Source: Candidatus Endomicrobiellum cryptotermitis
Lineage (GTDB): Bacteria; Elusimicrobiota; Endomicrobiia; Endomicrobiales; Endomicrobiaceae
Length of the DNA stretch: 46,291 nt
Reading direction: 5' to 3'
NCBI GenBank assembly: GCA_031257835.1
Contig: JAIRNY010000001.1
Coordinates: 1 to 46,291, forward strand
The position numbers and the translations under genes are program-made. Of the stretch, positions 25,210 through 27,862 are shown in pieces. Every line of letters starts with the position of its first letter. Position 1 is the first letter of the stretch. Below the pieces are notes generated by a model, which did no database searches, was not told the origin of the DNA, and saw only the letters and a program-made list of their open reading frames with translations.

Positions 25210-25225
25210 ATTGAAGAGGACAAAA

Positions 25226-26179
25226 ATGAATACAAAATTTGATTCACTTGGTCTTTACTTTGATGCGATAAGAACTATAGAATCTGTTTCTCCTGAAGCT
25301 ATGAAAGAACTTTGGCATTTGTCGAAAACAGACAAAAGAGCTTTTGATAAAATAGTAGAGCAAAACTATAAACTTGTTATACCTATAGCTAAAAGGTTTA
25401 CAAAAAAAGGTATGGACATTATGGACCTTATAGAAGAAGGTAATATTGGGCTTATGAAGGCTGTAGAAAAGTTTGATGTTTCAAAAGGAGTGGCTTTTTC
25501 TACATATGCAGTTTATTGGATAGAACAGTATGTAAGAAAAGCTGTAGAAAATCAACTAAAAACAATAAGAATCCCTTCACATGTTTGGGATGCTTTGAAT
25601 CGCTGGACAAAAACAAAAGTGATATTAAAAACACAGTTAAACAGAGAAGTAACAGATGAGGAAGTGGCAAAAAAATTGAAGTTAAATAAGAAACAAGTTG
25701 ATGATTTAAGAAGATTTTCATCTGTGTTTAACGGAACTTGTTCATTAGAAACGCCTATGTCTGAAGATTCTAATATACAGCTTAAGGATACAATTTCTGA
25801 TGTTTTAGATAATTCGCCAGAATCTGTTACAGAAATTGTAAGAACTAGAGAGGACATTAGTATAGCTTTAAATGACTTACTTGATAGAGAAAGAGAAACT
25901 ATTCGCATGAGGTTTGGAATTGGTGGGATAGATGTGGTATCTTTAGATGGCATAGGGAAAATTTTTAATATTTCAAGGGAACGTGTTAGACAATTGGAAC
26001 TTAAAGCTTTTAAAAAATTAAAAGATATTCTTGCAAAATATAATTTTATTAGTCCAGAAGAGGCTAAAAATCTTAAGCTTGATAGTAGAAGTGGCAAAGA
26101 TAGGCGTAAAAAAGAAACTATACTTTCTCCTCTTACAGATAAGAGGTTTAATGTAGAAAGAAGATCTCGGTGGATATAG
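25226..26179 (+). CDS. RNA polymerase sigma-70 family factor (RpoD/RpoS type) with basic C-terminal tail
   Basis: Directs RNA polymerase to promoters. Regions 1.2, 2, 3 and 4 are present: DLIEEGNIGLMKAVEKFD and FSTYAVYWIEQYVRKAV (2.2-2.4), RIPSHVWDALNRW (3), and DGIGKIFNISRERVRQLELKAFKKL (4.2 helix-turn-helix). There is no region 1.1. At 317 aa it is nearer RpoS/group 2 than a primary factor. After region 4 comes an unusual tail of about 35 residues rich in Arg/Lys (SGKDRRKK...NVERRSRWI). ATG 25226 is preceded by AGAGGA; an in-frame TTG at 25211 is less likely. A third-strand overlap of 214 codons on the minus strand is a shadow. Confidence 0.88.
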   Translation: MNTKFDSLGLYFDAIRTIESVSPEAMKELWHLSKTDKRAFDKIVEQNYKLVIPIAKRFTKKGMDIMDLIEEGNIGLMKAVEKFDVSKGVAFSTYAVYWIEQYVRKAVENQLKTIRIPSHVWDALNRWTKTKVILKTQLNREVTDEEVAKKLKLNKKQVDDLRRFSSVFNGTCSLETPMSEDSNIQLKDTISDVLDNSPESVTEIVRTREDISIALNDLLDRERETIRMRFGIGGIDVVSLDGIGKIFNISRERVRQLELKAFKKLKDILAKYNFISPEEAKNLKLDSRSGKDRRKKETILSPLTDKRFNVERRSRWI

Positions 26180-26277
26180 GAGGGGTGGAAAAACAATTTA
26201 TTTTATAAACACATTGGGATTTTTTTGTAATTTTTACTGTAAATTTTATATAGTTGTGATATAACCATTAATGTTGT

Positions 26278-26351
26278 GCCCTGATAGCTCAATTGGATAG
26301 AGCAGATCCGTCCTAAGGATAAGGTTGGAGGTTCAACTCCTCTTCAGGGCG
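26278..26351 (+). tRNA. tRNA-Arg (CCT)
   Basis: Acceptor GCCCTGA / TCAGGGC, anticodon loop GTCCTAA (CCT, reads AGG), T arm GGAGG-TTCAACT-CCTCT, discriminator G at 26351. The anticodon stem has a G27-A43 mismatch at its base; the other four pairs hold. A short T-run follows. CCA is not encoded. Confidence 0.9.
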
Positions 26352-26415
26352 TTTTATAGTTTAATTAAAACATTATGTTGCCTACATTTCACTTCGCAAC
26401 TTCACATCTAGTCTA

Positions 26416-26428
26416 GGGGGGGGGGGGG
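26416..26428 (+). repeat. Poly-G tract, 13 nt
   Basis: A run of 13 G in an otherwise AT-rich intergenic region, 46 bp upstream of the likely -35 of the transporter gene. Long G tracts change length easily by slippage. Confidence 0.9.
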
Positions 26429-26457
26429 CTTGCCTTTTTTAGAAAACTAATTTAAGG

Positions 26458-26503
26458 AAAATTTCACAAAAATTTCACAAGTTATTGTCTTTTTTAATAT
26501 AAA
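26458..26503 (+). promoter_or_regulatory. 11-bp tandem repeat (Pho-box-like) and promoter of the transporter gene
   Basis: AAAATTTCACA occurs twice in perfect tandem (26458-26468, 26469-26479). The second TTCACA (26474-26479) serves as a -35, followed after 18 bp by TATAAA (26498-26503). TTCACA-N5-TTCACA with an 11-bp period is the layout bound by PhoB/PhoP-type regulators. Regulator identity is inferred. Predicted start is about 26510, giving a leader of roughly 60 nt. Confidence 0.5.
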
Positions 26504-26572
26504 TTATCAGATTAAAATGATATTATTAATATGTTATGGATGCATAATTATATAAATTGTGGGAGAAAGTTC

Positions 26573-27862
26573 ATGGTTTCAATATCAATTGAAGGAGCAA
26601 ATAAATTTAAGTATTGGCAAATCCGTACTATGGTATCAACTTGGGTTGCTTATGCTGTATTTTTTATTATGCGTAAAAGTCTCGCCATGGCTATGCCTGG
26701 AATGCAGGCAGATTTAGGTATATCTAAAGCTCAACTTGGCATATTTTTAACTTTGTCCGGAATAGTATATGGTATATCAAGATTTACAAATGGTTTTATT
26801 GTTCACAAATTTATGGCCCGTAATTTTATTACTTGTGGTCTTATTATTTGTGCAGTGTGTAATTTTATCTTTGGTTTTAGTTCTACAATTTTTGTTATGG
26901 GTATAATATGGATTATTCATGGTTGGGCTCAAGGAATGGGTTGGCCTCCAAATGCTAGACTTTTGCCTCATTGGATTGTTCCTGAAGAGCTTGCAACGAA
27001 AATGTCTTGGTGGAACACGTCACATTGTGTTGGAGCTGTAGCTATCCTACTATCTGGTGGGTATTTAGCTACTTTAGGGTGGAGGTATGTGTTTTTTGTT
27101 CCTTCCTTTCTTGCTATTGCTATTGCGATAGTGTTATGGTTTCTTATTTATGATACTCCGAGTTCTGTAGGACTTCCTGAAATTACATTTGGTGAAAATT
27201 ATAAAAGATCTCAAGATAAAAAAGAACAGTCTGCTGAATATAAAAAATTTATAAAAAAGCAAGTGTTTAGAAATCCATACGTTTGGATTATTGCTGTATC
27301 AAATTTGTTTGTTTATGCTTTAAGATTTGCAATATTAGATTGGGGTCCGACACTATTGAAAGAGTGGAAAGGTATGCATCTAGCACATGCAGGGTGGATG
27401 GTTGCAGCTTTTGAAATATCAGGTGCTATAGGTATTATTTTTTGTGGATGGATTACGGACAAATATTTTAATGGTAAAGGTCCTCGTGTTTGTGCAATTG
27501 CTATGGCTCTTGCATCTTCTTTTATATTTTTATTTTGGAACACAATTGATGCGTCAGTATTAGTTTCTCTACTATTTTTGGTAGCGTCTGGTTTTTGTAT
27601 TTATGGAACGCAGTCTTTACTACTTGTTTCTGTATCTAACATAGCTACAAAACGTGCTGCGGCAGTAGCAAATGGTTTTGTTGGTATTTTTGGGTATACT
27701 TCTACTATTCTAACTGGTGTTTTACTTGGTTTAGTTACAGATAAGTTTGGTTGGAAGACTTCTTTTGGTTTATTGATTTTCTTGGGAGTGATTGGTACTA
27801 TACTGCTCTCTTTTGCATGGAAAGCAAAAGCTACAGGTTATGATAGTCTTGAAACTGAATAA
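26573..27862 (+). CDS. MFS transporter of the organophosphate:phosphate antiporter family (UhpC/UhpT/GlpT type)
   Basis: Inner-membrane 12-helix transporter that would import a phosphorylated sugar (hexose-phosphate or glycerol-phosphate) in exchange for phosphate. FIMRKSLAMAMPGMQ, GIVYGISRFTNGF, GWAQGMGWPPNARLLPHW and MSWWNTSHCVGA match the OPA signature (R-K-S/N-...; QGxGWPxxxR; WNTxHNxG). His replaces the usual Asn-rich context in places. The start at 26573 follows GGGAGA; an ATG at 26531 has no ribosome site. The length is 429 aa. It stands alone between tRNA-Arg and a strong terminator. Such carriers let intracellular symbionts take host sugar phosphates. Substrate is inferred. Confidence 0.85.
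   Translation: MVSISIEGANKFKYWQIRTMVSTWVAYAVFFIMRKSLAMAMPGMQADLGISKAQLGIFLTLSGIVYGISRFTNGFIVHKFMARNFITCGLIICAVCNFIFGFSSTIFVMGIIWIIHGWAQGMGWPPNARLLPHWIVPEELATKMSWWNTSHCVGAVAILLSGGYLATLGWRYVFFVPSFLAIAIAIVLWFLIYDTPSSVGLPEITFGENYKRSQDKKEQSAEYKKFIKKQVFRNPYVWIIAVSNLFVYALRFAILDWGPTLLKEWKGMHLAHAGWMVAAFEISGAIGIIFCGWITDKYFNGKGPRVCAIAMALASSFIFLFWNTIDASVLVSLLFLVASGFCIYGTQSLLLVSVSNIATKRAAAVANGFVGIFGYTSTILTGVLLGLVTDKFGWKTSFGLLIFLGVIGTILLSFAWKAKATGYDSLETE

Follow-up and report, generated by a model that had tools for sequence, protein, structure and literature searches.

A thirteen-guanine tract upstream of a sugar-phosphate transporter gene in Candidatus Endomicrobiellum cryptotermitis: a probable slippage expansion in a weakly constrained spacer

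Introduction

Why does an uninterrupted run of thirteen guanines stand upstream of a transporter gene in Candidatus Endomicrobiellum cryptotermitis? A preliminary description of this locus regarded the run as a homopolymer of the kind that mutates by slippage, and proposed that changes in its length shift an upstream activator relative to the promoter of the transporter gene. We followed up these proposals in the window, i.e. the whole stretch of 46,291 nucleotides that was analysed (assembly GCA_031257835.1, contig JAIRNY010000001.1, positions 1 to 46,291 of the forward strand), in the remainder of its genome, and in related genomes of the same genus and family. The closest named relatives of the window are metagenome-assembled genomes (MAGs) of Endomicrobiellum and Endomicrobium.

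Results

The tract in the window and in its own genome

Direct reading of the window sequence places the thirteen-G homopolymer (hereafter G13) exactly at 26416..26428 (+), as had been described. The tract lies in an otherwise AT-rich spacer and is the sole G/C run longer than 6 in the window, which has a GC content of 30%; the other G runs reach at most 6 bases and the C runs at most 5. With its thirteen bases, G13 has the length of a slippage-prone mononucleotide tract, for which at least eight uninterrupted G were required here. We fitted a geometric run-length model to the window, which gave an expectation of 0.094 G runs of at least 8 and 0.0038 of at least 10 per window. For runs of at least 13, extrapolation by the same ratio gave ~3 × 10⁻⁵ per window and ~1 × 10⁻³ per genome. 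Hence, G13 is a genuine feature of the assembly that chance is very unlikely to have produced, and the earlier remark that it is very unusual in such AT-rich DNA was borne out.

The own genome (1,051,938 bases in 28 contigs, 87% complete) contains just one further G/C run of at least 8, at C6:82890. The two runs seen compare with ~2.3 expected under the same model and therefore indicate no enrichment; what is anomalous in this genome is the length of 13, not the number of runs of at least 8. The run at C6:82890 sits in a broken, repeated piece beside an ORF whose product appears to be a subtilase-like protease, a label taken from its sequence rather than from a family search.

A tract of contingency-gene type was considered and rejected, since no ORF of at least 80 aa crossing G13 was found.

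The tract or its length might also have been produced by poly-G read errors or by the assembler. Two-colour sequencing chemistry yields poly-G read errors. Some genomes of the family carry poly-G at contig ends, where in one family member it looks like a read or assembly artefact: one contig (L150) ends in G28, and 11 of the 26 listed places of G042 lie at most 150 bases from a contig start. Moreover, one Endomicrobium study discarded reads with G stretches of at least 23; in the excerpts of that study that bear on Endomicrobium and homopolymers, this read filtering is the one mention (PMC8809381). In contrast, G13 is internal, with 26.4 kb of contig to its left and 19.9 kb to its right, and both of its flanks are syntenic and alignable in relatives. 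Furthermore, poly-G is not spread evenly over the family: five genus groups (g10–g14) are nearly free of such tracts, with four runs of at least 9 in 17 genomes, counted regardless of assembly method. An artefact is thus an unlikely source of G13, although its exact assembled length may be in error.

Neighbouring genes

G13 is preceded, at a distance of 63 bp, by a tRNA-Arg gene with anticodon CCT (26277..26352, +). Further upstream lies an ORF for a sigma-70-family factor (25211-26179), of which the best NCBIfam models are RpoD/RpoS-like and below cut-off. Downstream, alignment with relatives and NCBIfam matches identify an OPA/UhpC-like sugar-phosphate transporter of 429 aa (26573..27862, +), which is followed by genes for QueF (TIGR03139) and MurC (TIGR01082). 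The best NCBIfam matches of the transporter span about 375-410 residues and are to the models PgtP, UhpC and GlpT. This full-length match to OPA-type models is our criterion for the OPA family and agrees with the preliminary description of the gene as an organophosphate/sugar-phosphate type transporter; all of the matches fall under the curated cut-offs, so that no substrate was assigned.

The listed ORF of the transporter opens at ATG 26531. This start is probably too early, and ATG 26573 the true one, because the protein of three relatives aligns from the codon that matches ATG 26573; a G-rich ribosome site of the GGGAG type precedes it. With this start, G13 ends 144 bp before the gene.

Outside Endomicrobia, the nearest matches of the transporter are proteins of Sphingobacteriaceae, of Pedobacter and of termite-gut Bacteroidales type (44-54%). 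According to passages of PMC11257099, Endomicrobiellum acquired such transporters independently, in a clade named OPA2, to which the transporter of the window presumably belongs. The tRNA-Arg(CCT) gene followed by the acquired transporter occurs in 11 genomes (26277-27862 in the window and 10 relatives); this shared order may point to the tRNA end as the site of an ancient insertion.

The spacer in relatives

A search of the genus gave a transporter match in 38 of 41 genomes. We scanned 20 loci (L213-L232) for tRNA-Arg upstream of the transporter, and found it directly upstream, either by ARAGORN or from the tRNA 3' end, in 11 loci including our own. The search for the conserved motif missed 9 of the 20 loci, of which G034 was recovered later. 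In three genomes (G007, G017 and G018) the gene was present and tRNA-Arg was absent from the fetched piece; for G017 and G018 the scan covered tRNAs alone. Six others (G008, G009, G013, G039, G033 and G006) were left out, because their matches for the transporter and for tRNA-Arg fall on separate contigs or at a great distance from each other.

Measured from the tRNA end to the conserved motif, the spacer varies from 152 to 810 bp across the 11 loci. The window spacer contains the 13-base run, and in the remaining ten spacers the longest G/C runs have between 3 and 5 bases. G13 was thus present in one of the 11 syntenic spacers, in a comparison between species, and was kept at the same place in none of the ten other genomes with the tRNA-Arg-transporter order.

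We aligned the window with Em. incisitermitis (L008), Em. roisinitermitis (L009) and Gx481_bin217 (L010). These are the three closest relatives, and opposite the 13 columns of the tract they show TAGG, GAGA or a gap. Just before the tract (26375-26415), 5, 6 and 26 of the 41 columns are gapped in the three relatives, whereas nearer to the gene (26451-26530) the numbers are 0, 1 and 0 of 80. These counts take in window columns, such that insertions in the relatives fall outside them, and L008 has an insertion of 48 bases just before 26451. In one close relative, the stretch around G13 is largely deleted, while the transporter frame is still open. Since all checked relatives of the same gene order are without G13, the tract looks like a slippage expansion and not like a proven gene switch.

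Promoter candidates and transcript

We scanned the region 26180-26620 for promoters and terminators. The consensus scan gave two sites versus 2.2 in shuffles, and none of the sigma-70-like consensus sites was located between G13 and the gene. By eye, a weak candidate promoter can be picked out at 26474..26503 (+), consisting of TTCACA, an 18-nt spacer and TATAAA, although it fails the scan rule. Its -35 candidate, TTCACA at 26474-26479, is the likely -35 of the preliminary description: the distance of 46 bp given there is arithmetically right, but the promoter itself is weak and unsupported by the consensus scan. An alternative candidate, also found by eye, is the extended -10 TGATATTAT at 26518..26526 (+). 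The aligned place reads TGGTATTAT in L009, TGATATTAT in L010 and TGATACGAT in L008, which fits the candidate in two of the three relatives (L009 and L010) and more poorly in L008.

The first of these candidates overlaps a tandem TTTCACA repeat with 11-bp spacing (26462..26479, +), 33 bp downstream of G13. The own genome holds one further exact copy of this 18-bp tandem, at C6:113472-113489, before a putative start that we read as alaS-like. A reversed control pattern gave four genome matches versus two for the tandem, and therefore the repeat was not shown to be above chance genome-wide.

These positions bear on the proposal that G13 is a phase-variable promoter element, in which the number of G would shift an upstream activator site or the shape of the DNA, and so tune transcription of the transporter. 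The proposal draws on the short distances from the tract to the candidate -35 and to the repeat, on the recurrence of the repeat ahead of the transporter gene in G010 and G034, and on the tpr genes of Treponema pallidum, where promoter poly-G length alters transcription according to passages of PMC7864442. Against it, G13 is missing from all ten relatives of the same gene order, and a close relative without most of the surrounding spacer retains an open transporter frame. Moreover, the consensus promoters are not above chance, and G13 lies upstream of every candidate core promoter and inside none, with the TTTCACA repeat between the tract and the gene. A phase-variable promoter element is quite improbable on this evidence; the argument for phase variation of the transporter is the position of the tract, and from position we regard it as a doubtful proposition. 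The promoter-spacing role proposed earlier thus found no support in the comparison with relatives, in which the surrounding stretch proved to be rich in indels.

The absence of terminator-like sites from 26180-26620 means that read-through from tRNA-Arg into the gene is possible. In such a transcript, G13 could form a G-quadruplex or pair with other bases, and affect the stability of the leader. However, the predicted fold of the 231-nt leader is not superior to those of shuffled sequences (z 0.70, in a model without quadruplexes), the Rfam matches nearby are the tRNA and one sub-threshold match on its other strand, and G13 is not conserved. We consider an RNA element extremely unlikely, and this candidate was rejected for lack of a fold signal and of any Rfam family besides the tRNA.

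Long G/C tracts across genus and family

Long G/C tracts are widespread in the genus. Runs of at least 8 occur in 36 of the 41 genus genomes, with a total of 590 in 37.25 Mb. The genus median is 11.5 per Mb and the own genome has 1.9 per Mb, as raw densities that are not composition-matched per genome; run models for loci that had been picked without regard to tracts predict about 2-3 per Mb. Runs of at least 9 were found in 55 of 76 family genomes. Outside genus group g1, tract density ranged from 2 to 18 per Mb among groups g2-g9 and from 0 to 1 per Mb among g10-g14, which are presumably the rumen-type genera. A/T runs of at least 10 are rarer than expected, e.g. 0 versus 7.9 in 73 kb. A tract load peculiar to Endomicrobiellum was rejected, because all seven termite-gut Bacteroidales-type genomes carry G runs of at least 8 (4 to 30 each, 134 in total; raw and not composition-matched).

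The placement of the tracts was studied in a sample of 60, composed of the first listed tract from each of 30 genomes (with the C6 run of our own genome included and G13 excluded) and 30 of the 44 tracts of G040. Ten of these 60 tracts lie within ORFs of at least 150 aa, versus 32.5 expected: 8 of 30 in the genomes sample (18.0 expected) and 2 of 30 in G040 (14.5 expected). To allow for frameshifts, we also counted the tracts flanked on each side by 100 open codons. There were 5 of 60 versus 12.6 expected, i.e. 4 of 30 in the genomes sample (7.0 expected) and 1 of 30 in G040 (5.6 expected). Since open frames on both sides are scarcer than expected, frameshifted genes do not explain why the tracts avoid long ORFs. 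A few tracts stand in a ribosome-binding position, such as a G8 before a NusA-like start in G004 (L091, near 1502) and a G9 before a chorismate-mutase-like start in G040 (L211, near 1502), both gene names being our own. Translation-level variation at these two places is possible.

A pattern at the 5' side of tRNA-Ala(TGC) was matched in 6 of the 41 genus genomes (L243-L248). Four of them have GGGG as the orthologous G run at this site, while G030 has G8 and G040 has G11. This is the clearest sign of short G runs growing in the genus, and it upholds the earlier view that tracts of this kind change in length.

We also considered the mismatch repair genes. Median tract density was 5.4 per Mb in the 27 genomes with MutS and MutL models over cut-off versus 18.6 per Mb in the 13 with neither, a difference that is not significant (p 0.21) and is confounded by genome incompleteness; G019, with only MutL over cut-off, was excluded. 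The genomes of the genus mostly retain MutS and MutL. Loss of repair as the cause of G13 was rejected, because MutS and MutL are both full length in the own genome; together with the lack of enrichment in runs of at least 8, this means that a general repair defect offers no explanation.

Discussion

Our results favour slippage as the probable origin of G13, which would have expanded from a short G seed in this lineage alone, within a weakly constrained spacer. Support for this reading comes from the absence of the tract in relatives, from its indel-rich surroundings and from a genus in which long G tracts are frequent and mostly outside long ORFs. The seed, between the tRNA-Arg and transporter genes, may have resembled the GG found at about the same place in one relative. 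Replication slippage would then have lengthened it to G13 in the own lineage, and its length would still vary between cells, without a regulatory role kept by selection. G13 is probably length-variable.

A bolder proposal holds that G13 is a length-variable switch, by which endosymbiont cells in one flagellate would differ in their uptake of host sugar phosphate. We judge this very unlikely; if true, the switch would be one visible example of a broader accumulation of poly-G in the non-coding sequences of Endomicrobiaceae from termite guts. G13 alone is an ordinary hypermutable tract, and its main interest is that it points to an excess, across the genus, of long G tracts that lie outside long ORFs. 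These tracts could serve as a natural length marker of symbiont lineages in single hosts. They also raise the question of what makes G runs, but not A/T runs, become long.

Several known systems resemble G13 in part. In Neisseria nadA and Helicobacter sabA, a repeat upstream of the -35 alters the spacing to upstream contacts. G13 shares with them the place of the repeat upstream of a -35, here a weak candidate, whereas its activator, promoter and length variation are putative. Campylobacter genomes are AT-rich. Like those of Endomicrobiellum, they are rich in long G tracts and poor in long A/T tracts, as described in parts of PMC6321876. In the large set reported there, however, 82% of the poly-G tracts were within ORFs, while the sampled tracts of Endomicrobiellum avoid long ORFs.

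In Treponema pallidum, the tpr genes and tp0126 have promoter poly-G tracts whose length is reported to vary (excerpts of PMC7864442), and G13 is similar to these in having at least 8 G and in preceding a gene for a membrane protein. The Treponema tracts are inside the promoter and their length effects have been measured, whereas G13 is upstream of its candidate promoters, unconserved, and known from sequence alone. Finally, Buchnera has a reduced symbiont genome with run-length mutations, and its homopolymer indels are attributed to biased base composition in the relevant passages of PMC3164680. Endomicrobiellum is alike in its reduced symbiont genome and in such mutations but, unlike in Buchnera, A/T runs of at least 10 are below expectation and the G/C runs are the long ones.
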